This document shows positions 6,168-53,205 of a stretch of DNA of 53,205 nucleotides, piece by piece. Position 1 is the stretch's first letter. Each line of letters begins with the position of its first letter. Position numbers and translations under genes: made by a program. The stretch comes from a virus. A model generated the notes under the pieces. The model saw only the letters and a list, made by a program, of their open reading frames with translations. It searched no databases and had not been told where the DNA came from. The stretch is taken from IMG/VR virus record IMGVR_UViG_3300015374_000008, positions 1-53,205 of that record; one strand, 5' to 3'.

Positions 6168-6326
6168 TCACTTGATCTTGCCTTGTCCCTTGAGGCGAAT
6201 ATAGATGGCGTGCACTTGTGCATCAGACATCTTGTTCACCTTCTGAACCCAGGGGCTTTTCTTCTTGTCGGATACCGGGGGATATGCCTCTAGGATTGCG
6301 CGACGTTCTTCCGCAGAATTAGCCAT
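6168..6326 (-). CDS. Small basic protein, 52 aa
   Basis: ATG at 6326 overlaps the TGA of the upstream 207-residue gene (TGATG), which supports it as a coupled gene. The product begins MANSAEERRAIL and ends RLKGQGKIK. It contains KKKSPWVQKVNKMSD followed by a short helix AQVHAIYIRLKGQ. It has no membrane segment and is Lys-rich. The KKSPWVxKVxxMSDxQVxAIYxRL layout is familiar from small phage proteins, but no function is known to me. Confidence 0.75.
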   Translation of the reverse strand: MANSAEERRAILEAYPPVSDKKKSPWVQKVNKMSDAQVHAIYIRLKGQGKIK

Positions 6327-6949
6327 CAGTCAAGAGGCTCAGGCGGTGGAAGCTTAATCAAATATCCTCCTCGAACATGCTGAACGCCAGAACCGCGAAG
6401 GTCGGTCCAACCGTACTTATTGTCGGTGTAGTTGCTTGACACACCACACATCTCGTAGAAGTCAGCAACGCTAACACTGTCGTACTTATCAATCCAGGCG
6501 TCCATACGGTCGAGCACTTCCTCGGCCTCTACACGCTTGTCGAGAACAATCTCGTCAAAGTTGTGTAAGCTCCGAGACCGTCTGCTCAACTCGCGGCGGG
6601 GCTCGTCCCGGTATCCCGGCCTACCACGACTAGAAGAAATGCTGTGATAGTCCGTTCGACCCGGGAGCCCTCGAGAACGTCCTCGGTGACGATGCGAGGA
6701 GTCACCAAAGATCGCTCTCTCGACACCACCCGTTAAAGCGTCTGCAATCATGTCACGTGCCGCTGGAATGAGAACTTCTCCGAGCATGTAACCCCAGACA
6801 CTCTGAGCGTCGCCACCGATGAGGTTCTGCGTCATGCGACGCCCAAGCGGGATCTTACGACGAACGACCTCGCCCTGGACGACGCGCTCTACCTTAGGCT
6901 CTTCTCGTGACCTTTCCGGTCGCTTGCTATTGCTGGGGAAATTATCCAT
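6326..6949 (-). CDS. Arg-rich protein with shared C-terminal GW module, 207 aa
   Basis: The N-terminal half is basic and low in complexity, with RSREEPKVERVVQGEVVRRK and a long Arg/Ser/Gly stretch near residues 90-125. It probably contains one weakly hydrophobic amphipathic helix (GYMLGEVLIPAARDMIADAL). The C-terminal 60 residues form a module with SVSVADFYEMCGV, a GW pair and a final GGYLIKLPPP. The same module ends both DUF6353-like membrane proteins nearby (5219-6133 and 8934-9749), so the three probably share a partner or scaffold. Start ATG 6949 follows GAGGA. Function unknown; the Arg-rich region could bind nucleic acid, which is inference. Confidence 0.85.
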   Translation of the reverse strand: MDNFPSNSKRPERSREEPKVERVVQGEVVRRKIPLGRRMTQNLIGGDAQSVWGYMLGEVLIPAARDMIADALTGGVERAIFGDSSHRHRGRSRGLPGRTDYHSISSSRGRPGYRDEPRRELSRRSRSLHNFDEIVLDKRVEAEEVLDRMDAWIDKYDSVSVADFYEMCGVSSNYTDNKYGWTDLRGSGVQHVRGGYLIKLPPPEPLD

Positions 6950-7410: not shown

Positions 7411-7440
7411 CTCATTATACGGCGTGTTTTTTACGCGAGA
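7411..7440 (-). promoter_or_regulatory. TCGCG-N14-TATAAT promoter, copy 1
   Basis: On the minus strand: TCGCG at 7438-7434, a 14-base spacer with an A-run, and a perfect TATAAT at 7419-7414, followed by GAG. The TAA stop of the upstream gene (7433-7431) lies inside the spacer. It should drive the unit from 7329 down to the DNA polymerase. Confidence 0.8.
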
Positions 7441-9870: not shown

Positions 9871-9900
9871 TCTCATCATAGGGCGTGTTTTTTTCGCGAA
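9871..9900 (-). promoter_or_regulatory. TCGCG-N14-TATGAT promoter, copy 2
   Basis: Minus strand: TCGCG at 9899-9895, a 14-base spacer with an A-run and ACACG, then TATGAT at 9880-9875 and GAG. It drives the DUF6353-like protein at 8934-9749. Confidence 0.75.
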
Positions 9901-10382: not shown

Positions 10383-10411
10383 TTCATTATACCCCTTGTT
10401 TTTTACGCGAA
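10383..10411 (-). promoter_or_regulatory. TCGCG-N14-TATAAT promoter, copy 4
   Basis: Minus strand: TCGCG at 10410-10406, 14-base spacer TAAAAAACAAGGGG, perfect TATAAT at 10391-10386, then GAA. The -10 ends 27 bases before the ATG of the 81-aa gene. It begins six bases past the tRNA 3' end. Confidence 0.85.
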
Positions 10412-10416
10412 TGTAG

Positions 10417-10489
10417 TGGGGGCACACGGGCTCGAACCGTGGACCCGATGATTAAAAGTCATCTGCTCTACCAACTGAGCTATACCCCC
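10417..10489 (-). tRNA. tRNA-Lys (anticodon TTT)
   Basis: The acceptor arm GGGGGTA pairs with TGCCCCC (one G-U pair), followed by discriminator A. The D arm reads AGCTCAGTTGGTAGAGC. The anticodon arm GATGACTTTTAATCATC gives anticodon TTT. The T arm has the GTTCGAGCC core. The 3' CCA is not encoded (CTA follows), so host CCA addition is needed. It sits between a hairpin and promoter copy 4 and is probably cotranscribed with the 39-aa gene upstream. Confidence 0.95.
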
Positions 10490-10690: not shown

Positions 10691-10719
10691 TTCATTATAC
10701 CCCTTGTTTTTCTCGCGAA
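10691..10719 (-). promoter_or_regulatory. TCGCG-N14-TATAAT promoter, copy 5
   Basis: Minus strand: TCGCG at 10718-10714, spacer AGAAAAACAAGGGG (14), TATAAT at 10699-10694, then GAA. The leader to the 39-aa gene is about 20 bases. Confidence 0.85.
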
Positions 10720-10975: not shown

Positions 10976-11004
10976 CTCACTATACCCCGTGTTTTCTACG
11001 CGAG
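10976..11004 (-). promoter_or_regulatory. TCGCG-N14-TATAGT promoter, copy 6
   Basis: Minus strand: TCGCG at 11003-10999, spacer TAGAAAACACGGGG (14), TATAGT at 10984-10979, then GAG. It drives the 61-aa gene. Confidence 0.8.
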
Positions 11005-11257: not shown

Positions 11258-11286
11258 TTCATTAGAGTCCTTGTTTTTTGCGCGAC
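11258..11286 (-). promoter_or_regulatory. TCGCG-type promoter, copy 7 (TCTAAT -10)
   Basis: Minus strand: TCGCG at 11285-11281, 14-base spacer, TCTAAT at 11266-11261, then GAA. The -10 departs from TATAAT at one position, as in copies 8 and 9, which may make it weaker. It drives the 62-aa gene. Confidence 0.75.
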
Positions 11287-11552: not shown

Positions 11553-11581
11553 CTCATTAGAGCCCATGAAAAAGACGCGAA
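11553..11581 (-). promoter_or_regulatory. TCGCG-type promoter, copy 8 (A-run reversed)
   Basis: Minus strand: TCGCG at 11580-11576, 14-base spacer TCTTTTTCATGGGC, TCTAAT at 11561-11556, then GAG. This copy has T's where the others have A's in the spacer, yet the spacing is unchanged. It drives the 56-aa gene. Confidence 0.7.
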
Positions 11582-11938: not shown

Positions 11939-11967
11939 GTCATTAGAGGCCACGTTTTTCTCGCGAA
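11939..11967 (-). promoter_or_regulatory. TCGCG-type promoter, copy 9 (TCTAAT -10)
   Basis: Minus strand: TCGCG at 11966-11962, spacer AGAAAAACGTGGCC (14), TCTAAT at 11947-11942, then GAC. It drives the 89-aa gene. Confidence 0.75.
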
Positions 11968-12382: not shown

Positions 12383-12411
12383 CTCATCATAGGAGATGTT
12401 TTTGTCGCGAG
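12383..12411 (-). promoter_or_regulatory. TCGCG-N14-TATGAT promoter, copy 10
   Basis: Minus strand: TCGCG at 12410-12406, spacer ACAAAAACATCTCC (14), TATGAT at 12391-12386, then GAG. It starts the microgene array directly after the stop of the structural-side gene at 12417. Confidence 0.75.
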
Positions 12412-33412: not shown

Positions 33413-33913
33413 TCAGCGACCGCTAGTAATAGCTTTTACGGGCATTTCCCAAACTTTGGCATCGAAATCGTTTACTGTCTGTGCGCCACGAGTCATAGTT
33501 GTCACATTAAAGACACCGTTTTTGCCGAACCCGGCATCAACAAAGCTTCGAGCCGCCTTTGGTGCTTTAGGCGTTCGTGTCCAAAGCGGATTGCCAACAT
33601 TCTTTGGTGTAAATGTTTTACCAGCAAACGGCGACTTTGGAAGCTTTACACCAGATCTAGGCATTCTAGTTGAGCCATACTTTTTAAGAACGTAGGCGGT
33701 AGCTACAGCACCCACAACAACAACTCCGGCGGCAGCAACTTTTGCGCCGGTGTGATTATTAGGCTTGGGTGGAGACAAGTCAAAAGTATCTCGATAATCT
33801 CCCTGATTATAGTCTTGATTATCGCGCTTCTTACGAACACCCCAATGCATACCTCGGACACCGAAGTGTTCTAATGCCTCCTCCAGAGGCGGTTTAGTTT
33901 CGTTGAGAAACAT
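33413..33913 (-). CDS. HFGVRGMHWG-tagged protein, 166 aa
   Basis: ATG 33913 overlaps the terminase stop (TAATG). Residues 13-27 contain ALEHFGVRGMHWGVRKK, a peptide tag seen in several proteins of this locus. One hydrophobic helix near residue 55 (KVAAAGVVVVGAVATAYVLK) follows, then a basic proline-rich stretch (TPKNVGNPLWTRTPKAPKAA). Probably a minor head or internal virion protein; role unknown. Confidence 0.75.
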   Translation of the reverse strand: MFLNETKPPLEEALEHFGVRGMHWGVRKKRDNQDYNQGDYRDTFDLSPPKPNNHTGAKVAAAGVVVVGAVATAYVLKKYGSTRMPRSGVKLPKSPFAGKTFTPKNVGNPLWTRTPKAPKAARSFVDAGFGKNGVFNVTTMTRGAQTVNDFDAKVWEMPVKAITSGR

Positions 33914-35681: not shown

Positions 35682-36722
35682 CTAATTAACGGAAGTTTCC
35701 GTAACTACTCTCTTTTTACGAGGAGGAAGTTTACCCTTATCAATAAGGATGTTTTCTCCCTTAAACTTTACAACGTCTTTAAGAAGCTGTTCGCCGGTGT
35801 TAATAAGCACATTATCAATAATTTTCCCGGCACGCTTACCAAGTTTCTGGCTCTTGGTCTGCTTTTTAGGAAATGCGGTGTACGCTTTCCTAAGGGTTTC
35901 GGCACGATTAGTAAGTATACGAATTTCTTCGTTACTCAGCGAATGAATGCCATGTTCCCTAGCCTTAGCCTTCAATGCTTCATAAACCACTTGATCATGT
36001 GGCGTGTGCGGTGAGTGTCCGGCAATAGAAGGCGGAGGCTTACGCACAGGGGCACTCTGCCAAGGCGGCTTTCCGCTGGAGCTTCCAGAAGAACCTCGAG
36101 AAAGTTCTGCCTTAGACCGACGAATACCCCAGTGCATACCGCGAACACCAAAATGCTCTAAGAACTCAGCGACAGAATCGTTCTGCATCATCTGCATAGG
36201 CTCTAGCGCGGTGATAAATCCATCTTCATCTCGAATAACTCGAAACACGAGTTCATCCATCGCGTGGACAACTTTATTCTTAAATTCTCTAATAGTTTTT
36301 GGATCTCCTACAAACAGATGGAAAGTATCATCCTGAAGCTTAACAAAACCATCAGTACCTCTAGGTAATACTGATTTTAAGCTAGGCATTAACCTATCAG
36401 AGAATTCTTTTTCGTACTGATCTCTCAGCTTTCCAGTTATAGGTCCTTGGCTTTTATTATGTTTTTCTCTAAAGTCCTGCGTAAATCCTGGAATTACATT
36501 ATCTTTATCAAGCTTAATAAGGAAATTATCAGCAACTTTAGTGGTCTTAATTCTTACTTTATTTTGCTCTTTTACAGTTAAAGATTTAACTCCAGGAGCT
36601 ACCAAAGCTCCTGCATGTCCTGGATGCGATCCGTTTAATGCTTCAACTCCGATTACGCCTTTACGCACTCCCCAGCGCATTCCTAAAATGCCGTGATGCT
36701 CTAGAAATTCGTCGACCTCCAT
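35682..36722 (-). CDS. Double HxG-tagged minor head-type protein, 346 aa
   Basis: ATG 36722 has AAGGAGG upstream. Two copies of the tag are visible: LEHHGILGMRWGVRK near residues 7-20 and LEHFGVRGMHWGIRRSK near 188-204. An AT-rich stretch of about 160 residues lies between (FHLFVGDPKTIREFKN, VIRDEDGFITALEPM). The second tag is followed by a basic, helical end with an SNEEIRILTNRAETLRKAY helix. It looks like two tagged proteins fused. Probable virion-internal protein; role unknown. Confidence 0.75.
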   Translation of the reverse strand: MEVDEFLEHHGILGMRWGVRKGVIGVEALNGSHPGHAGALVAPGVKSLTVKEQNKVRIKTTKVADNFLIKLDKDNVIPGFTQDFREKHNKSQGPITGKLRDQYEKEFSDRLMPSLKSVLPRGTDGFVKLQDDTFHLFVGDPKTIREFKNKVVHAMDELVFRVIRDEDGFITALEPMQMMQNDSVAEFLEHFGVRGMHWGIRRSKAELSRGSSGSSSGKPPWQSAPVRKPPPSIAGHSPHTPHDQVVYEALKAKAREHGIHSLSNEEIRILTNRAETLRKAYTAFPKKQTKSQKLGKRAGKIIDNVLINTGEQLLKDVVKFKGENILIDKGKLPPRKKRVVTETSVN

Positions 36723-41498: not shown

Positions 41499-42284
41499 TC
41501 AAGCCCAAGAAAGACAAAGTTCTACCACAGTTGTGATGTCAGCAGCAAGAATTGCAGCGTCTGTGTGATTTAAACTCGTACTAACTAAATGCTTAACCAC
41601 GTTTGACCGCCCAGAAGCATATGCGTCTACTGCAGCAGACGTGCAAGCCGTGTCTGCACTACTATAGAACAAATGAATAGGCATCGTAAGCACGGCCATG
41701 TTGGCTGGATCTAAAGGTTTACCTCTGGTTGGAACTGGAGTTTGATCAGCACCACCGATGTATGAGCCGGCGGGAAGCCCCCAACCTTGACCGGCGACAG
41801 AGTTTCCAGTATTAATCTGATCTCTTAGACTAAGAACATTACGTGTTCTAAAATCCTCGATGTCAATTGCTGGAATCCAACAAATAATACCGGCAACTAG
41901 TGTGGGGTGAGCTAACGCATATCGAAAACACTCCATGGCACCCATTGACGCGCCTAAGAGAATAACTTTATCTGTCTTACAGAGCCCTGTTCCTTGCGCG
42001 TATGAAACAGCACCTTCCATGGCGGCCAACCCGGTGTCGTTTCCATAGGTGTGTGGACCACCAAAATCTCCAGCCAAGCCATATAAACCTGCGTGAGCAA
42101 GAGCAGAGATGTTTTTCGTAACACCTTTCTGACTTGCTCCGTCCATGGCTTGCATACCGTTTCCGTTTGCTCCATGAGCATAGAAAAACGGTCTATATCT
42201 ACTGCTAGGACCTCGAGGCACAAACGGTACAGAAAGTTCTGAAGGGGAATAAAGCCCTACTTTAGCCTCTGCATAGTAAGACAT
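41499..42284 (-). CDS. Alpha/beta hydrolase (esterase) in tail locus, 261 aa
   Basis: ATG 42284 overlaps the upstream stop (TAATG). Features of a serine hydrolase: nucleophile elbow LLGASMGAMECF (G-A-S-M-G) near residue 115, an Asp in YSSADTACTS near 215 and a His in STSLNHTDAA near 243. Near the N-terminus there is FFYAHGANGNG, a typical oxyanion HG motif. No signal peptide. Its place among fibre genes suggests a virion-bound esterase or deacetylase that trims surface polysaccharide or lipid. LysB-like mycolate esterase activity is possible but not supported by specific motifs. Confidence 0.78.
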   Translation of the reverse strand: MSYYAEAKVGLYSPSELSVPFVPRGPSSRYRPFFYAHGANGNGMQAMDGASQKGVTKNISALAHAGLYGLAGDFGGPHTYGNDTGLAAMEGAVSYAQGTGLCKTDKVILLGASMGAMECFRYALAHPTLVAGIICWIPAIDIEDFRTRNVLSLRDQINTGNSVAGQGWGLPAGSYIGGADQTPVPTRGKPLDPANMAVLTMPIHLFYSSADTACTSAAVDAYASGRSNVVKHLVSTSLNHTDAAILAADITTVVELCLSWA

Positions 42285-43567
42285 TAGGCATAACCCCACG
42301 ACATCCAAGATTTGAAGAACGAACCACCAGATCCATTCAAAAGTTGAGCAGCGAAAGATGTAGCACTGTTCTTATATGCATACATCGTGTACACACGAGA
42401 TGGCGTATTAGGATCAATAAAGTCGTGGCCCGAAGCCCGAGCATAACCCGTAGTGTTGCCGTTCTCAAACGAACACACATCACCACAGATAAATGCTGGA
42501 GTTCCTTGATCATCCATGATTGCAACCGAGGCTGTTCCTGTTTGGGCGGCAGCAGCCGACGTTGTCACATCAATCCAAGCAGAGCACTTAAGCCAAATAC
42601 GCTGCGTGCTTTGCGGAATTGTAAACGAAGGTCCAACCGCAGTTGGCGTTGTTGTTAACGCCATCGCTACACCGTCGTTTCGAGCTGCCACATCTTGCAC
42701 AGCACCAGGACTGAGAAGCGTCCAGTTAGCTGCGTCAAACACTGAACCAGAAGTAAAGTCAGAGATAGCAGAATATGCTAAGCCATTCTGAACAACAATT
42801 TCTCCAGCTAAATAGTCATGATTTGCAAGCCATGTGGCCGAACGACGCGCCCGGAGATTGCTTGCCGAATCAAGATCAGCAATAGCTGCCTGAACGTTTG
42901 TGTGCGTGACAACGACAAGACCAGAAGTTGTGACTGAGACTTTATCAGCAGCGTGCGCCCCAGTAGCCCCAACGTGTGTTGAAATTTCTCCTGCAACGAA
43001 GGCCGATGTAGCGATAGATGTATCATTATCGCCGGCGGAAGGAGTCGGGGCTGTTGGATTACCAGTTAGCGCAGGAGACGCAAGAGGAGCTTTGAGGTCG
43101 AGAACTGTCTGCTGCGCGGTTGAAACCGGTTTCGCGGTATCAGCAGTATTGTCGACATTCCCCAGGCCCACGTCACCTTTTACTAAAGAAAGATTGGCCT
43201 TTGCCTCGGCGACGTCTTCCAAATCAGAAAGATTGCTTGCCTTTGCTAACTTACCAGACACCGTAGTAGCTAATGCTGCTGCCGCATCTTCATCCGAGGA
43301 CAAAAGAGCAGCGAGCTCACCAAGCGTGTCCATGGTGCCCGGAGCAGAATTTACAAGATTTGAAACAGCTACGCTAATTGCTGAATCTAAATCTGCCTGA
43401 TCAACCGGTTCCTGCGCCTTAATAAGCAGAACTGAGAGATCCGACCATCGAGTTTGGCCATCGCCAAGCTTAAGGCTATTGTCGTTTAGATCAGTCGCTA
43501 AATCGTTCTTCTTAAGAATGGGATTGTAACTAATCCATTCCCTACGCCGTCTCGCATCAATGGCCAC
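42284..43567 (-). CDS. Tail fibre, Mtd-like anchor plus binding tip, 427 aa
   Basis: GTG 43567 with GAGAGGAG upstream. The N-terminal 190 residues (RRREWISYNPILKKNDLATD, LGDGQTRWSDLSVLLIKAQE, KLAKASNLSDLEDVAEAKAN, then TGNPTAPTPSAGDNDTSIAT) match the spike at 46591 nearly throughout. Then a CBM-like HDYLAGEIVVQNGLAY segment and a beta-rich C-terminal half. Likely a receptor-binding protein using the shared anchor. Confidence 0.85.
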   Translation of the reverse strand: MAIDARRRREWISYNPILKKNDLATDLNDNSLKLGDGQTRWSDLSVLLIKAQEPVDQADLDSAISVAVSNLVNSAPGTMDTLGELAALLSSDEDAAAALATTVSGKLAKASNLSDLEDVAEAKANLSLVKGDVGLGNVDNTADTAKPVSTAQQTVLDLKAPLASPALTGNPTAPTPSAGDNDTSIATSAFVAGEISTHVGATGAHAADKVSVTTSGLVVVTHTNVQAAIADLDSASNLRARRSATWLANHDYLAGEIVVQNGLAYSAISDFTSGSVFDAANWTLLSPGAVQDVAARNDGVAMALTTTPTAVGPSFTIPQSTQRIWLKCSAWIDVTTSAAAAQTGTASVAIMDDQGTPAFICGDVCSFENGNTTGYARASGHDFIDPNTPSRVYTMYAYKNSATSFAAQLLNGSGGSFFKSWMSWGYA

Positions 43568-46590: not shown

Positions 46591-48888
46591 TTACATGCCC
46601 TGTGTTCCGGATAAATAAATCCAAGATGGTGTGTCCGTAGTGCTAATATTCAAGAAGCGGAAGGTGGAGACCTTCCCGCCGGTCAGGCCCGCGCCGGCCA
46701 GGGCAGGTGCGCCCTTGAACGTCCCCGCATCGAACGTCAACGTGCGCCCCCCGATGTTGTCCTGGGTGGCGACGACGGTGATCTCCTGCCCCGGGTAGGC
46801 GTCCCCGGCGTTCATCGCGGCAACCGCCGTGTCGCCAACCATGCGGAAGGTGAACCGCTCCGCGGAGAACGGGTAGAACGCGATGGTGCCGCTGACGTCG
46901 CCGTAGGCCGACAGGCTGTGCGCGTAGGCCCACTCGAGCTCGTTGCTCGACGGCAGCGCACCGTTCTGGAAGTGGAACAGCCGCGACCCGGCGCCCGTGA
47001 CAGCGTCGCCATAGTTGCCGATGCCGAGCCGGACGCGGTTGCCGTTGGTGGCCGCTCCGTCGTAGAGCACGCCGTACAGCCCGGCGGGGTTGTCGGCCTT
47101 GACCATCATGAGATCGAGGTCTTTGCCGGTCGCCCCGTTGTGCAGGTACAGCCCAGTGACGGAGTTGCCACCGCAGGTGTGCGCCTTGACCGAGTTGCTA
47201 GACCCGCCGTCGATCTCGACGCCGTAGCCGTAGTTGTCCTGGCTCTCGCAGCCGGTGAGCTGGTTGCCCGTCGCGGCGGGAGGAATATAGAAACCGCTTT
47301 GTAGTGTTGACGTCACCGAACGGGGATCGCCTGTCGGCCACACGTCGTTACCGCCGTACCAGGCCTTACAACCTGTCAGCTTCGCGTTTGCTGTATCAAG
47401 GTGGAAGCCATGTTGTCCGGACAGGCCTGCGGAACAATTGACGAGATTCACATCATAGCGGCGAATGTTGAACCCGTGTCGTTTCGCGCCGACCGTGTAA
47501 ACGTTGACAAGCGAGTCGCCGCCTGCGCGACTGGAGCCGGGACCGGAACCGGTGGCCTGGTCGATGCGGACGCCGTCCTGGCCGGCATAAAGCACGTGCA
47601 CATCGCGCACCTGCAGGCACGGGTCGGTGTAGCCCACGAGCGCATCGAGATCGCTGCTGTTTTGATGGTTCGGGGCGAGGAAGATACCATCGCCGGTGCA
47701 ACCCAAATCCTTGTGCCCGAGCACTGTCATGTTATTGACAAGCGCCTCGTACAGAAAGGTCGTTCCGTCAGTGGGGCTGCCCACGACATGGGTGGCGCTA
47801 CCGGGCACCGCACACAGGTGCGTGCCGCGGCCCATTCCTCGAAGGTGTACTCCATGCTTCATGACGACGTTGGCGAGCCACCAACCGCCAGGAAGAACAA
47901 CTTCTCCGAAGCCTCCAACGGAGCAGGCATCGATGGCTGCTTGGATCGCAGCACTATCATTGGTTGCTAACCACGCTTTCTTAGCGCTGACTGTTGTTCC
48001 TGCGGTAACTGAGAGAACAACCTGTGTGGGATCGATGTAGGTCTGAATCGTTCCGTAGAGCGGCACACCGGCCGTACCCGCGCCGATTACGGCGAAGTGC
48101 TTCCCCTCGTCGGCCTGAGTAAAAGCTGCTGTCGCTGACGTGAGCGTGGCACTCCCGTTAGTCATTGCTGCGTCCATGACAACACGCCTATCGCCTTTGG
48201 CGCCATAGTCACGAACATTAAGGAATGGAAGAGTAGCAGAGGGACTGGTTGAGCCGGCCAATCGTTGAATGTAGATCGAATTGTCCGCGCTATGCTGAGC
48301 AGCAATCGCGGCGTCGGCGTACGCCGTGGTAGCAACCTTAGTGCTGTTATCGCCGGCCGACTGTGTTGGAGCTGTTGGATTACCAGTTAGCGCAGGGGAG
48401 GAAAGCGGAGCTTTGAGATCTAGAGCCGTCTGCTGCGCGGTTGAAACTGGCTTATTGGCGTCTGAGGTATTATCGACATTGGCAAGACCGACATCACCTT
48501 TTACTAAAGAAAGGTTGGTCTTTGCTGTAGCAACGTTTTCCAAATCAGAAAGATTGCTCGCCTTTGTCAACTTACCAGCCACTGCAGTAGCTAGTGCTGT
48601 TGATGCATCTTCATCCGAAGCCAACTGCTCCGCCAGCTCACCAAGAGTGTCTAACGTTCCTGGAGCAGAATTGACAAGACTTTCAATTGCCGCATTAATC
48701 GCTGAATCTAAGTCGAGCTGCGTAACCGGTTCCTGAGCCTTAATGAGGAAGACTGGCAGATCCAACCATCGAGTTAGACCGTCACCGAGCCTAAGGCTGT
48801 TGTCGTTTAGATCAATCGCTAAATCGTTCTTCTTAAGGATTGGATTGTAGTTAATCCATTCCCGGCGCCTTCTGGCGTCAACGGCCAC
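46591..48888 (-). CDS. Beta-helix tail spike with shared N-terminal anchor, 765 aa
   Basis: GTG 48888 with GAGAGGAG upstream. The N-terminal 190 residues match the fibre at 42284-43567 (RRREWINYNPILKKNDLAID, LGDGLTRWLDLPVFLIKAQE). From about residue 225 a pectate-lyase-like right-handed beta-helix begins (FLNVRDYGAKGDRRVVMDAA), with repeated strands and turns to about residue 660 and a C-terminal beta-sandwich. Such spikes cut or bind surface polysaccharides. GC-rich third codon bases in the second half suggest that the spike part was acquired separately. Confidence 0.87.
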   Translation of the reverse strand: MAVDARRRREWINYNPILKKNDLAIDLNDNSLRLGDGLTRWLDLPVFLIKAQEPVTQLDLDSAINAAIESLVNSAPGTLDTLGELAEQLASDEDASTALATAVAGKLTKASNLSDLENVATAKTNLSLVKGDVGLANVDNTSDANKPVSTAQQTALDLKAPLSSPALTGNPTAPTQSAGDNSTKVATTAYADAAIAAQHSADNSIYIQRLAGSTSPSATLPFLNVRDYGAKGDRRVVMDAAMTNGSATLTSATAAFTQADEGKHFAVIGAGTAGVPLYGTIQTYIDPTQVVLSVTAGTTVSAKKAWLATNDSAAIQAAIDACSVGGFGEVVLPGGWWLANVVMKHGVHLRGMGRGTHLCAVPGSATHVVGSPTDGTTFLYEALVNNMTVLGHKDLGCTGDGIFLAPNHQNSSDLDALVGYTDPCLQVRDVHVLYAGQDGVRIDQATGSGPGSSRAGGDSLVNVYTVGAKRHGFNIRRYDVNLVNCSAGLSGQHGFHLDTANAKLTGCKAWYGGNDVWPTGDPRSVTSTLQSGFYIPPAATGNQLTGCESQDNYGYGVEIDGGSSNSVKAHTCGGNSVTGLYLHNGATGKDLDLMMVKADNPAGLYGVLYDGAATNGNRVRLGIGNYGDAVTGAGSRLFHFQNGALPSSNELEWAYAHSLSAYGDVSGTIAFYPFSAERFTFRMVGDTAVAAMNAGDAYPGQEITVVATQDNIGGRTLTFDAGTFKGAPALAGAGLTGGKVSTFRFLNISTTDTPSWIYLSGTQGM

Positions 48889-49079
48889 GATCTCGGCTCC
48901 TCTCGATGGCTTAGGTGGAGTGCCAGTCTTGTCTGCCCTCTTTGAAAAGTTTGGCTACAGTTCTGGGGAGAAGCGAAGCCTTCAACAAGACTTCTGTAGT
49001 ACTTCCCGAGACTTTAAACCCGGATTGTCTCTCTAGAAAGTCCCCCCGGGGCATTTTTGAGTGGACCGGCGATGTGAGA

Positions 49080-49111
49080 GGGGGGGGCTTTTTCGGGACC
49101 CCCCTCCCCCC
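49080..49111. other. G-run / C-run hairpin
   Basis: Eight G's at 49080-49087, a CTTTTTCGGGA segment, six C's, T, then six C's to 49111. The runs can pair in several registers, giving a very stable GC stem. A nearby CCCCCCGGGG (about 49042-49051) adds to it. Confidence 0.7.
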
Positions 49112-49185
49112 TACCGCTTTATCCCACGATGTTCTGTTGTGCTCCCTACAACTCCCGTTAGCAGCTCCAGGAAGGTTTGGATTCA

Positions 49186-49226
49186 GTTTTTTATTAACTT
49201 TTTTATTTGTTTTTTATTAACTTTTT
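49186..49226. repeat. Two 18-base AT-rich direct repeats
   Basis: GTTTTTTATTAACTTTTT occurs at 49186-49203 and 49209-49226, period 23 bases. The region is nearly pure A/T and is a candidate unwinding or protein-binding element. Confidence 0.85.
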
Positions 49227-49262
49227 ATCCAGTTAACGACCATCATTGCTATCCCCATGGCT

Positions 49263-49280
49263 GGGTGGGGTGGGGGCGGG
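49263..49280 (+). other. Canonical G-quadruplex motif
   Basis: GGG-T-GGGG-T-GGGGG-C-GGG on the plus strand: four G-tracts of three or more separated by single bases, predicted to fold very stably. It is on the template strand for leftward transcription. Confidence 0.75.
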
Positions 49281-49369
49281 TTGTTATCAACCGCCAGTTG
49301 TCAGCCATCTGTGTGCTGCTTATCGCCGCCATCCATCAACGGTTGATCAGCTACTTGTTATGCTGTTTG

Positions 49370-49648
49370 CTATGCTGATGCAGCCACCTCTTGTGGTGTT
49401 CTAGGTGCTGTATCAGTTGGTGTGATCCTGCAGTGCATGCCATACACGTTCTCTTCGATGATCTCGTCGATAGCGTTGTCAATGGCCTGGCTATAGTCAG
49501 CCTCTGATAGATCAGGGGATACTACAGCAATGCGGGCTAGGTAACCTAGTGTGTTATAGCCAGCATTCATGTCCCATGTCAACCATTCCTTGAAGTTATG
49601 GAAAGGATTGAATGGATTGTCTACAGTGGTTAGCATCTGATCGTCCAT
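49370..49648 (-). CDS. Small conserved partner of the RNA polymerase-like gene, 92 aa
   Basis: ATG 49648 has GGGAG four bases upstream; the ATG at 49663 overlapping the upstream TAA (TAATG) is an alternative. The sequence LTTVDNPFNPFHNFKEWLTW followed by GYNTLGYLARIAVVSPDLSE matches small phage proteins I remember beside large DFDGD proteins in other phages. Soluble, mostly helical. Function unknown; its conserved adjacency suggests a shared role. Confidence 0.8.
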   Translation of the reverse strand: MDDQMLTTVDNPFNPFHNFKEWLTWDMNAGYNTLGYLARIAVVSPDLSEADYSQAIDNAIDEIIEENVYGMHCRITPTDTAPRTPQEVAASA

Positions 49649-49662
49649 TACTCTCCCTTCCA

Positions 49663-52356
49663 TTACTTAAGGGCTTCTCTGACAGTGGTTGTAGACACAC
49701 CTAGGGCACTAGCAATCTCTGCCTGAGTAAAGCCTTGAGCCGACATGTTTCTAGCTCGGGCTTCCTGGGTGGGGGACATGCTGATGTGAGAGCGGGGGGT
49801 GGCAAGCTCTCTAATCTTATCAATTTCTGTGTTCGCAAGGATCTGCGTAAGTTGGTGATGCGAAATCGCTCCGGCTTGAATAGCTGCCCATTCTCTATCT
49901 GTAGGGACAACCTTAGTTTTGTTAGCACCTATCCTAGTCCGAGCCGTAGCAAGAGCCTGCCCCTTAATCTTCTTAAGTGTTGCCTGGTCCATCGTAGGGT
50001 TGGCTTCAATCTGCTTAGCCACGATGGTGTGGGCGAAGATCTGAGCCTGTCGCTCTAGAGGGGCATTAGCTTGCGCAATCTTAAGCTTACTAATGAGACT
50101 ATCAACTTCAGCTTTGTAAACCCTTTTAGCATCCAGGTTTACTCGTGGTGCCTTAAAGTTATAGAGCTCTTTACGAGCTTCATTAGCAAGACTCTTAAGA
50201 GCATTAGAGTGGTCCGCATAGACTAACTCAATACGAGTTTGTTCCTTAGAAACCAAGGTATGGGCATCGTGGGTATTGGCCAATCTAGCAACCTCTACCA
50301 AACGCCCATGAACATTACCCTGGCTATCAACCCAAGTCTTAGGCGTAGTCATCTTGTGCCCAGTCTTAGGGTCGATTGGCCCGCCTTCTGTTGCACGACG
50401 AGGCCGCGTCTCAGGAACTCGAATAGTAGAGGTGGCTCTAGAAATCAGAGTTGATGCTCCACCAGCTTTACCATGGTCCTTGCCTTGGTACTTCTCTTCC
50501 AATGCTCTAATACCGAAATCTCGATAAGACTTCTTGTAATCGAGATGATGCTTTTCGGCATCAATAACCACCATTGAATGCCTAACGGCACGAGAAAGTT
50601 CCTCATTAGAAGCACCCTTAATTGTCATGTCTGTGATAAGGTTGCTGACCTTACCCATCTCAAGACCCTTAGTTTTGGGTTTCATCTTAGGAACATCATC
50701 CGGAAGCTTGTATAGCGTGTGCGGATCGAAATTCTCAAGTTCTTTAAGTGCCGGCTCCGTCTTAATTCGACGAGGATTGTTCGGCTTGTTTGGAATCACA
50801 AGAACGAAGTCGCCGTCGAAGTCTGCACCAGAAAGCTTTTTGGCTACATCGGGGTGAATTCCGATTGCATCCTTAGCCTGCTTACCCATCATCTTAATAG
50901 CTTCACGGTTTTTGTTGTTTACCTGAAGCTCTGGAATCTCAAACTTGCCACCATGAGGATAACGAATCAGAACAACAGTTTCGCCATCTTCGTAATTCGG
51001 CGCGTACACCTGGTGCTTCTTCAGGCTTTGAACTGGAAGAATCACATGTGTAGACTGACGCGGAATGTGCGCTGCGTCGAGATGTACGGCCGAAGAATCT
51101 GCCCCATCTGCAAACTTCTCAAGAAGGTGTGCACGAACGGCGGGATTAGTGAGGGACTTAATCTCATTGAAATCCGACAGAAGCCGTTCTTTCTTAATTT
51201 CGAGCTGTTGCTTAGCGAGGGCTGGTGCCTGCTTAGAAAGAACCTGCGAAGAAATGGCGTTGTTCCAGTCTGCCCAAGATCCCTCTTCGTTCAAGAGATT
51301 CATTGCAGAAGTGGTCTTTTTGCCAGTAGGATCAAGAATCTGTCGATTGATTGTCGAACCAAACGGATTCTCTGGATCGATTCGGCCGGCCTTCTTCTCT
51401 TGCGGCTTCATAGCATCGAGATCGTTGCCTGTATTCGACTTATTAGTGTGGAATACAAGATCTTTGCCTTTTGGCATGTCGTCTTTGTAGACGGCCATAC
51501 CCTTAATGTAGTGGGTACCACCAATACCAACACGAACCTGTGCGTAAGTTGCGCCGCCAAGAGAAACGTCTTCAACACCAGGTCGAACGTGAATCAGACC
51601 GTCGGCCTTGTCGCCGCCTTCTTCTTTGTACACGACCTTAACACGCTTTGGGTCTATGTTGATAATTGGTTTCGAACCTGTGTTAAAGGTTCGACCACCA
51701 TCTTCGGAATACGATCCTGGAAGTCGAATGTTGTCTCGATTGGCCTTAGCCTGCTGATACGTTGTTCCAGGAGGTGCTAGAACCTTAACTGTAGTGAAGT
51801 TTCCTGGTGAGCCAGCTTGCGGCACCTGAACCGGATGAACAACATAACCCTGCTCCTTCAAAACGGAAACCGCGTTTTTTAACTTGTTAGCGGAAATACC
51901 GAATTCGGGAAGATGTTCAACACCAGAACCGATCTGAACGTAAGTTTTGTCGTCTACTTCTTTCTTTAAACGCTCTGCGATCGTATGAATGTTCTCAGCT
52001 CGTTCTTTCATCATAGACGACATGACAGAACGAACCGAAGACTCAGACATACCGAGTTCCTTGCCGATGGCTGATGCGCCATACTGCTTTTCGGCAAGCT
52101 TACGGACCGCATCGAATTTTTCGTTCTTTCGCTCATTGCTTTCGATAGAACGACGAGCACGAAGTTCGCTTGTTGTTATTCCAAATCCTCGAGCTACTTC
52201 AGTAGCCGGCATCTCCTTGAGAAGCTTCGATGTAATATCGAGAAAGCTTCCTTCGTATACTTTCTGATCTTTACCAGAACCCCAGGGATAACGCCCCGAC
52301 TTTCGTGGGGTGCCATAGTGAGCAAGATAATCTTCAATACGAATAATAATACTCAC
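49663..52356 (-). CDS. Two-barrel (DPBB) RNA polymerase-like protein, 897 aa
   Basis: GTG 52356 overlaps the Cas4-like gene. At about residues 500-535, AIGIHPDVAKKLSGADFDGD followed by FVLVIPNK mirrors the beta-prime active site of cellular RNA polymerase (AIQLHPLV ... NADFDGD), where three Asp bind Mg2+. Upstream, VVLIRYPHGGKFEIPEL resembles the region ahead of it. This suggests a single-chain RNA polymerase of the YonO/QDE-1 type (about 900 residues, like YonO). The N-terminus (YLAHYGTPRKSGRYPWGSGK) is a tag variant common in virion-associated proteins of similar phages. Helix-turn-helix segments lie near residue 45 and at the end (GFTQAEIASALGVSTTTVRE). Catalysis is inferred from one motif. 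Confidence 0.8.
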   Translation of the reverse strand: MSIIIRIEDYLAHYGTPRKSGRYPWGSGKDQKVYEGSFLDITSKLLKEMPATEVARGFGITTSELRARRSIESNERKNEKFDAVRKLAEKQYGASAIGKELGMSESSVRSVMSSMMKERAENIHTIAERLKKEVDDKTYVQIGSGVEHLPEFGISANKLKNAVSVLKEQGYVVHPVQVPQAGSPGNFTTVKVLAPPGTTYQQAKANRDNIRLPGSYSEDGGRTFNTGSKPIINIDPKRVKVVYKEEGGDKADGLIHVRPGVEDVSLGGATYAQVRVGIGGTHYIKGMAVYKDDMPKGKDLVFHTNKSNTGNDLDAMKPQEKKAGRIDPENPFGSTINRQILDPTGKKTTSAMNLLNEEGSWADWNNAISSQVLSKQAPALAKQQLEIKKERLLSDFNEIKSLTNPAVRAHLLEKFADGADSSAVHLDAAHIPRQSTHVILPVQSLKKHQVYAPNYEDGETVVLIRYPHGGKFEIPELQVNNKNREAIKMMGKQAKDAIGIHPDVAKKLSGADFDGDFVLVIPNKPNNPRRIKTEPALKELENFDPHTLYKLPDDVPKMKPKTKGLEMGKVSNLITDMTIKGASNEELSRAVRHSMVVIDAEKHHLDYKKSYRDFGIRALEEKYQGKDHGKAGGASTLISRATSTIRVPETRPRRATEGGPIDPKTGHKMTTPKTWVDSQGNVHGRLVEVARLANTHDAHTLVSKEQTRIELVYADHSNALKSLANEARKELYNFKAPRVNLDAKRVYKAEVDSLISKLKIAQANAPLERQAQIFAHTIVAKQIEANPTMDQATLKKIKGQALATARTRIGANKTKVVPTDREWAAIQAGAISHHQLTQILANTEIDKIRELATPRSHISMSPTQEARARNMSAQGFTQAEIASALGVSTTTVREALK

Positions 52357-52910
52357 TCGGCCTCCTCTCGAAGAATGTTGATACGCCTATCGAACGCTAC
52401 GATCTTATCCATAATCAAAGAAATGGTGACTGGATCCGCTTCATAGATTCGTACCTCATCGTTCTGGTAAATCCGAAGCTCAATCTCAATGTCGAAAGGA
52501 CGAAATCCATACTCAAGACAGAAAAGAGCAGAATAAACCTCGAGCTGCTTCTCTGATGCGTGATGAACTCCGTTTTTTAAATCATGGATACGAAGTTTAT
52601 TGTGTCTAAACGCAATCGTATCTACAGTCCCGAATGCATTCATCGAGTAGAACAAAATCTTCTCGGATTGCATACGAAAGCCAATTGCGTCATTGACATA
52701 CATGTTCATAGTCGTTGGCGTGTCCGGAAGACGAACACCAAGCGTAATCAAGTCGTGAGCGAGAGCGTGAAGTTTGGTTCCGCGCTGCGCAGCCATATTA
52801 GAGAGGAAAACTCTGTCGAGTTTGTCCTCAGGGTAGTTGAGCCAACTGTGCTTACTAGCGCTTAGAAAGGCGTGCTGGCCTGCGAGCTTCGAATTGTCGT
52901 TGAATTTCAT
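52353..52910 (-). CDS. Cas4/RecB-like exonuclease, 185 aa
   Basis: ATG 52910 with GAGG upstream, overlapping the previous gene. PD-(D/E)XK features: GTKLHALAHDL (His) near residue 44, FGTVDTIAF (Asp) near 95, IHDLKNG (D-x-K) near 109 and EKQLEVYSALFCLEYG (Gln-Tyr) near 122. No CxxC iron-sulphur cluster is visible, so it is RecB-like rather than a true Cas4. Likely a DNA end-processing nuclease for replication, recombination or host DNA degradation. Confidence 0.82.
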   Translation of the reverse strand: MKFNDNSKLAGQHAFLSASKHSWLNYPEDKLDRVFLSNMAAQRGTKLHALAHDLITLGVRLPDTPTTMNMYVNDAIGFRMQSEKILFYSMNAFGTVDTIAFRHNKLRIHDLKNGVHHASEKQLEVYSALFCLEYGFRPFDIEIELRIYQNDEVRIYEADPVTISLIMDKIVAFDRRINILREEAE

Positions 52911-53172
52911 CCAGAACCTCTTCTTCGTTCTCGGGGTAGATAAAAGCTGCGAAAGACATGTCGTTCAGCTGCTCAACGTAGTATCGCTGATTGGGCTGTT
53001 CGTCAGAATCTCTGCTAGCCTTGACCTCAAGCATCGCCCATCGATCTTCCCAGAGAAGAATCCAATCTAACATTCCCTGCATGTAACTGCTGTCATTCTT
53101 AAGCAAGATACAGCCAGGGAAGCGTAATCGAATTCTCTTGATCAGCTCAGCTTGGTACTTTCGCTCCAACAT
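52855..53172 (-). CDS. VRR-NUC or Holliday-junction-type nuclease, 105 aa
   Basis: ATG 53172 (MLERKYQAELIKRIR) has GGAGGG upstream; the frame is open to the window edge. PD-(D/E)XK pattern: MQGMLDWILLWEDRW (Asp) and MLEVKASRDS (E-x-K), with a final QRYYVEQLNDMSFAAFIYP typical of VRR-NUC/endodeoxyribonuclease folds. It overlaps the exonuclease gene by 56 bases, so the two are cotranslated. Probably structure-specific DNA cleavage. Confidence 0.8.
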   Translation of the reverse strand: MLERKYQAELIKRIRLRFPGCILLKNDSSYMQGMLDWILLWEDRWAMLEVKASRDSDEQPNQRYYVEQLNDMSFAAFIYPENEEEVLDEIQRQFEARRPARLSKR

Positions 53173-53205
53173 GAGCCCTCCAAGGTCGAAAACGGACAAA
53201 AACAA

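Follow-up and report, generated by a model that had tools for sequence, protein, structure and literature searches.

What does the RNA polymerase (RNAP) encoded near the end of the IMG/VR virus record IMGVR_UViG_3300015374_000008 do for the phage that carries it, and which promoters does it serve? Here we analyse the whole 53,205-base record (hereafter the window), in which the gene occupies positions 49663-52356 of the minus strand as an open reading frame (ORF) of 897 amino acids with a GTG start; the plus strand of the interval is interrupted by stop codons, so that the ORF marked in a first-pass annotation is real and its strand is the minus strand. We consider it likely that the gene encodes a packaged, promoter-specific, single-chain two-barrel DNA-dependent RNAP for early genes. 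The computations presented here establish the sequence family of this protein, its predicted fold, the conservation of an N-terminal tag and its sharing with other proteins, and the conservation of a promoter-like element that co-occurs and co-diverges with the RNAP.

The protein matched PHROG 4291 ('RNA-dependent RNA polymerase') over the full length of the profile (1165 bits; residues 7-897 against profile positions 8-906 of 909). A tblastn search with it retrieved 250 isolate phage records, of which 249 covered at least 80% of its length, with identities of about 36-53%; further relatives reside in at least 596 IMG/VR stretches. Members of PHROG 4291 such as ReqiPepy6 YP_009017720, Circum gp98 and 1706 ORF75 are full-length homologues that have the tag, the catalytic loop and, mostly, the gene neighbours in common with the window RNAP; ORF75, for example, is 36.7% identical to it over the full length and bears the same N-terminal tag. 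Gene content places the window phage in the Lactococcus 1706 / Rhodococcus ReqiPepy6 / Arthrobacter Circum group and, by sequence comparison, its RNAP is an additional member of the PHROG 4291 family with no essential difference. Homologues in SEA-PHAGES records are mostly named 'helix-turn-helix DNA-binding protein' because of a C-terminal helix-turn-helix (HTH; Pfam HTH_23). The polymerase class was already known and the family already in databases, while three features presented below, namely the shared head tag, the promoter code and self-regulation, appear undescribed in the literature that could be searched: a search with preprints and most subscription journals outside its reach found no paper on the tag or promoters of the PHROG 4291 family.

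The catalytic loop likened to that of beta-prime in the first-pass annotation, AIGIHPDVAKKLSGADFDGD, is present and ends at residue 516. In an alignment of 96 homologues, used for both conservation and the AlphaFold model, LSGADFDGD is invariant, with G510-A511-D512-F513-D514-G515-D516 all fixed; together with the full-length PHROG match and the 249 isolate matches, this argues that the loop is not a chance match. The model (predicted local distance difference test score, pLDDT, 88; predicted TM-score, pTM, 0.77) was compared with the PDB using Foldseek, and all nine matches with E below 0.001 were single-chain two-barrel RNAPs, namely QDE-1 (5fsw, E 1.2e-7, probability 1.00, whole-length alignment; 2j7n, E 1.4e-7), P74-26 gp62 (8f5m, E 1.4e-6) and plant RDR2, followed by bacterial beta-prime subunits and crAss gp66 (6vr4, E 9e-3). 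The two-barrel single-chain fold anticipated from the letters is therefore well supported by the predicted structure. Within it, a beta-prime-type catalytic barrel is assigned to residues 435-522 (50791-51054, minus strand), where the YonO-family profile phrog_8308 also matches (residues 441-524 only, 25 bits, E 1.2e-5), and contains the invariant DxDxD metal-binding triad D512/D514/D516 (50809-50823, minus strand). A candidate beta-type double-psi barrel covers residues 254-357 (51286-51597, minus strand), based on the strands of the model, the QDE-1 match and the invariant residues R275, K285, D299 and K306, the three basic ones of which fall inside the expected barrel. Two points weigh against this structural assignment. 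Global TM-scores of the model against known RNAPs are low (0.25-0.28), suggesting a common core fold with different domain packing, and the second barrel is placed from the whole-length fold match rather than from a residue-by-residue superposition. At the sequence level, a search of the PDB with the single RNAP query returned nothing, and one with the family profile returned HTH matches and sub-threshold DFDGD matches only.

Two alternative views of the enzyme itself can be weighed on this evidence. The protein could be a catalytically dead, DNA-binding structural protein of RNAP descent, a view to which its HTH domains, the structural label of its 1706 homologue and the SEA-PHAGES name lend some colour; however, invariance of the Asp triad and its surrounding loop in 96 diverse homologues would be unexpected of an inactive enzyme, and we consider this the least probable of the explanations discussed here. 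An RNA-dependent RNAP, as proposed by PHROG and some GenBank labels, is scarcely more credible: although QDE-1 and plant RDR2 are the best solved-structure matches and there is a sub-threshold Pfam RdRP match, the window phage has a double-stranded DNA genome in which a conserved promoter element is associated with the RNAP gene, and DNA is the template of the related phage RNAPs YonO, gp64 and gp96 (PMC5467207, PMC10770324). The 'RNA-dependent' label of PHROG 4291 is probably wrong with respect to the template, which we expect to be DNA. Promoter recognition may be provided by the protein itself. Two N-terminal HTH-like segments at residues 38-117 (52006-52245, minus strand), identified from model helices (H38-48, H51-57, H62-89, H94-101 and H105-137) and weak HTH profile matches, are candidate promoter-binding modules, and the C-terminal HTH at residues 862-896 (49669-49773, minus strand) lies above the cut-off (Pfam HTH_23, 32.3 bits), with sigma70 region 4 profiles near cut-off at the same terminus.

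The window offers candidate targets for such modules: a 27-bp promoter-like element, TCGCRnnAAAAACAnGnnnTATAATGA, is repeated nine times ahead of early mini-genes. These copies (TCGCGnnAAAAACAnGnnnTATAATGA) are all on the minus strand, from 12410 to 7412, ahead of tiny early ORFs with ribosome-binding sites, and were located with a position weight matrix (PWM): TCGCGACAAAAACATCTCCTATGATGA (12384-12410), TCGCGAGAAAAACGTGGCCTCTAATGA (11940-11966), TCGCGTCTTTTTCATGGGCTCTAATGA (11554-11580), TCGCGCAAAAAACAAGGACTCTAATGA (11259-11285), TCGCGTAGAAAACACGGGGTATAGTGA (10977-11003), TCGCGAGAAAAACAAGGGGTATAATGA (10692-10718), TCGCGTAAAAAACAAGGGGTATAATGA (10384-10410), TCGCGAAAAAAACACGCCCTATGATGA (9873-9899) and TCGCGTAAAAAACACGCCGTATAATGA (7412-7438). 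Their PWM scores of 34-51, against a null maximum of 11, indicate that the TCGCG promoters singled out in the first-pass annotation are real as elements. An N4-like hairpin promoter was considered on account of window sites reading GGGGTATAATGAACCCC and rejected, the arms being unconserved in other phages. Between 10100 and 12420 the region is organized as cassettes of promoter element, ribosome-binding site, mini-ORF (often below 70 codons), hairpin and next promoter, a layout that resembles a slot array for exchanging small early genes. A tRNA-Lys gene (anticodon ttt; 10416-10489, minus strand) also lies within this mini-gene array, directly before a TCGCG element.

The main rival explanation is that the TCGCR element is a promoter for the host RNAP, aided by a conserved phage activator, with the phage RNAP serving other genes such as late ones. 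The -10-like part of the element, TATAATGA, does resemble the sigma70 -10 box, YonO transcribes the late prophage genes of SPbeta (PMC5467207), and further proteins, e.g. of 207 and 97 amino acids, are conserved in all five isolates examined. However, the distance from the start of TCGCG to the TATAAT hexamer is 19 nt, compared with about 23 for sigma70 -35 spacing, and no sigma70 -35 is found at the right spacing. Furthermore, sigma70-type promoters in the window region were not above chance in a consensus scan, and host sigma70 promoters were rejected on that basis as an explanation of the TCGCG sites. The distribution of the element beyond the window, described next, also speaks against the host-RNAP explanation, which we regard as rather unlikely overall.

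In viral contigs the element pattern was found in 88 stretches and its reversed form in none, while in bacterial and archaeal genomes (257 Gb) it occurred at five places, near chance level, one being an RNAP-bearing phage contig. The RNAP is encoded on 41 of the 71 motif-bearing virus contigs and, among those of at least 40 kb, on 24 of 28; the other four carry the DNA polymerase of the lineage and are therefore likely incomplete. Searching in the opposite direction, the motif (up to three mismatches) was present in 37 of 44 contigs chosen for their RNAP, compared with 1 of 44 for the reversed control, and kept a single direction within each genome. Variants occur in phages of Arthrobacter, Streptomyces, Rhodococcus, Faecalibacterium and Lactococcus: the element was found in Circum, ReqiPepy6 and HotFries, in the form ACGCGn..CTTTTATGG in Faecalibacterium phage oengus, and as TCGCATGTTTTACATATACTATAGTAG in Lactococcus 1706. 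It is present with a fixed register in all five isolates examined, whose hosts belong to different phyla; one register maintained over hosts of several phyla, like the near-chance occurrence in cellular genomes, is at odds with recognition by host RNAP. In addition, RNAP clades differ in the -10-like part, which reads either TATAATRR or TTTTATGA; this variation requires 6 changes on the RNAP tree versus 24 with shuffled labels. Many members of the TTTTATGA clade have lost the second base of the -10 box, which is the base that sigma70 most requires. These patterns suggest a promoter code recognised by the RNAP and found almost only in phages of its lineage. The earlier suggestion that the TCGCG elements are targets of the RNAP thereby gains computational support from co-occurrence, near-chance frequency in cells and a -10 variant that tracks the RNAP tree, from which we infer recognition.

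The same element may also control the polymerase gene. At 62 of 121 loci (reversed control, 0) it lies upstream of the RNAP gene in the sense orientation and no more than 2.5 kb away, mostly at 0.9-1 kb, a position that corresponds to the start of an operon comprising the VRR-Nuc nuclease, the exonuclease and the RNAP. This sequence arrangement suggests positive feedback.

A second line of evidence concerns how the enzyme might reach the cell. The head-protein-like N-terminal motif mentioned in the first-pass annotation corresponds to a 16-residue tag, HYGTPRKSGRYPWGSG (residues 13-28; 52273-52320, minus strand), of the form H-x-G..SGRYPxGSG, which roughly equals the active site in conservation. 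Of 86 homologues not selected by the tag motif, 81 have the strict motif and three more have it with one or two changes; the remaining two comprise one protein cut by a contig end and one with a disrupted N-terminus. Residues 1-34 are predicted to be disordered, with a pLDDT below 50 for the tag, and this combination of disorder and high conservation fits a short linear tag. Six-frame scans of six genomes (the stretches read for Circum and ReqiPepy6 excluded the terminase region) located a related motif, H-x-G-x-x-G-M-x-W-G, exclusively on terminase-locus proteins. In the window, these are true relatives of the RNAP tag: a head-locus protein upstream of the terminase (35682-36722, minus strand) has two copies, LEHHGILGMRWGVRK and LEHFGVRGMHWGIRR, and a second between terminase and portal (33413-33913, minus strand) has LEHFGVRGMHWGVRK. 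Elsewhere the motif is carried by 1706 orf7 (two copies), the positional counterpart of the 35682-36722 product, by HotFries gp5 and by an oengus protein between terminase and portal. Both window proteins match phrog_35934 ('virion structural protein') via their tags, the 35682-36722 product through its second tag (E 1.7e-12).

The two versions of the tag can be found at the same place. When viral contigs were scanned for the RNAP-type tag, 80 ORFs were obtained, all but two of which appear to be the RNAP or fragments of it. Apart from the tag, the two exceptions, on contigs L102 and L122, show no relationship to the RNAP, whose PHROG profile they match through the tag alone, and each is encoded immediately 5' of the portal gene (in L102, directly after the terminase), where the corresponding protein of other phages, including the window 33413-33913 product, has the GMxWG version. 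The comparison supports the view that the RNAP tag and the head-locus tag are interchangeable. A literature search for the tag, using GMKWG-type strings, found nothing relevant. The Lactococcus phage 1706 deposit labels two of these proteins, orf7 and the RNAP homologue ORF75, as structural, and the ReqiPepy6 record has the same structural note on its RNAP; the 1706 labels reportedly stem from mass spectrometry in a 2008 paper. The simplest reading of these sequence patterns is a capsid-targeting tag, through which the RNAP would be packaged in the virion and injected. The first-pass suggestion of a virion RNAP as in crAss-like phages is strengthened with regard to the virion, by the deposition of ORF75 and the interchangeable tags, and has to be amended with regard to the model, as a stand-alone protein of ~100 kDa is unlike the giant crAss-like gp66.

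Alternatively, the RNAP may be a non-virion enzyme that is produced after infection and has a role like that of P23-45 gp64, with a tag that serves another purpose, e.g. as an anchor for the packaging machinery. Two features are consistent with this scenario: about half of the loci have a promoter of their own before the operon, and the neighbours are nuclease rather than structural genes. The deposition of 1706 ORF75 as a structural protein and the occurrence of the tag on head-locus proteins, including the likewise deposited orf7, speak against it, and we find the scenario doubtful. Some observations nevertheless count against a packaged, promoter-specific RNAP. Co-occurrence and tree-tracking would also be expected if the entire lineage had descended from a common ancestor. 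The TATAATGA form of the -10-like part in many phages suits host sigma factors, leaving a phage activator acting with host RNAP as an improbable but genuine competitor. A promoter ahead of the RNAP operon points to early synthesis, whereas late production might be expected of an enzyme that acts purely from the virion, and contamination of the virion sample could account for the structural label in 1706.

For the packaged RNAP that we favour, these components can be combined into a mechanism in which the active site would be built from the two barrels, D512/D514/D516 would hold the catalytic metal, and the built-in HTH modules would recognise the 27-bp phage promoter CGCRnnWWWWWACAnnnnnTWTWATRR, situated ahead of early mini-genes and, in many relatives, ahead of the operon of the RNAP. 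The disordered tag in common with head-locus proteins would load the RNAP into the prohead, allowing it to enter the cell together with the DNA, to start early transcription without host sigma factors and to feed back on its own operon, amplifying itself. We further lean, with less conviction, towards host-independent early transcription as a property of the entire lineage: one RNAP with fused HTH modules would replace core enzyme, sigma factor and promoter specificity, a single contiguous promoter block would be recognisable across phages of Actinobacteria, Clostridia and Lactococcus, the operon would be self-activating, and head loading would depend on a modular cargo tag shared with head-locus proteins.

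The genes surrounding the RNAP are conserved in all five isolates. The operon begins at the contig end with a VRR-Nuc-type endonuclease gene (52855-53205; phrog_93, E 8.9e-12) and continues with a Cas4/RecB-type exonuclease gene directly upstream of the RNAP (52353-52910; phrog_3953, E 2.4e-76), and the RNAP is adjoined by the gene for a small 97-aa protein (49370-49663; phrog_4303, E 1.2e-32), all on the minus strand; a DNA polymerase/helicase is likewise common to the window and the five isolates. The 97-aa protein has invariant DNP, W..WD and GY motifs and is modelled as a small helical protein (pLDDT 84), a model that alone gave no functional clue; it could be an RNAP accessory factor. The five isolates, 1706 among them, also all retain the 207-aa protein encoded at 6326-6949 of the window. 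Between the polymerase and VRR-Nuc genes the isolates have a stretch that is missing from the window contig, which is therefore not a complete genome. Directly after the RNAP and 97-aa genes is a 481-bp non-coding gap (48889-49369) with A/T-rich and G-rich tracts; the genomes of Circum, HotFries and ReqiPepy6 end at this place, so the gap may hold a cos site. Two tail-fibre-like genes upstream of the terminase (46591-48888 and 42284-43567) encode a near-identical N-terminus (VAxDARRRREWINYNPILKKNDLA) and diverge afterwards. Finally, one phage contig with the RNAP and the promoter motif (CANQZG010000021, our L305) is binned into a Bacteroidales metagenome-assembled genome (Muribaculaceae) that has two RNAP copies on two contigs, reflecting either a wider host range or mis-binning.

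Among the relatives of the enzymes responsible for transcription in all cells, single-chain two-barrel RNAPs are the simplest, and to our knowledge promoters are known for very few of them. The RNAP described here is carried by hundreds of phages, including culturable isolates on Arthrobacter, Streptomyces, Gordonia and Lactococcus, and its candidate promoter, present in all five isolates examined, can be ordered as an oligonucleotide and tested. If the tag loads cargo into heads, it would account for the packaging of an enzyme by siphophages with no giant-protein fusion and could be used for loading other proteins. Furthermore, our analyses correct the misleading annotations 'RNA-dependent RNA polymerase' and 'HTH DNA-binding protein', and the promoter code, self-regulation and shared head tag turn an anonymous annotation into a testable system.

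Comparison with known systems places this RNAP among several phage and cellular enzymes. The YonO-type designation of the first-pass annotation applies in part. Like YonO of SPbeta, the window protein is a phage RNAP consisting of a single ~100 kDa chain with an Asp triad in a related barrel, and BLASTP aligned its ADFDGD to FDNDGD of YonO. The families differ (PHROG 4291 versus 8308): YonO itself scores 1220 bits against phrog_8308, and since the match of the window RNAP to that profile is limited to the catalytic barrel, it is, by sequence, a distant relative outside the YonO family. The profile comparison with YonO envisaged at the outset did not bear out a closer link, as hhalign of the family profile against YonO alone gave no significant match. 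Jumbo-phage and YonO-like RNAPs have been covered previously (PMC7824862). The P23-45 virion carries one phage RNAP, gp96, packaged via fusion to the tape measure protein (PMC10770324). The non-virion RNAPs of P23-45 and P74-26 (gp64 and gp62) have the two-barrel single-chain fold that is predicted for the window RNAP, but those phages have two RNAPs, including the tape-measure-fused gp96, whereas the window phage has one, with proposed packaging by a short head-protein-type tag. QDE-1 and plant RDR2, the nearest solved folds, are cellular RNA-silencing enzymes that, unlike the window RNAP, have neither tag nor promoter. The crAss-like phi14:2 gp66, a virion two-barrel RNAP with a weak fold match, is a protein of ~2,170 residues, compared with a stand-alone enzyme of 897 amino acids with HTH modules. 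In phage T4, several packaged internal proteins have in common a short N-terminal capsid-targeting sequence and, although unrelated to it in sequence, the RNAP tag would follow the same logic.

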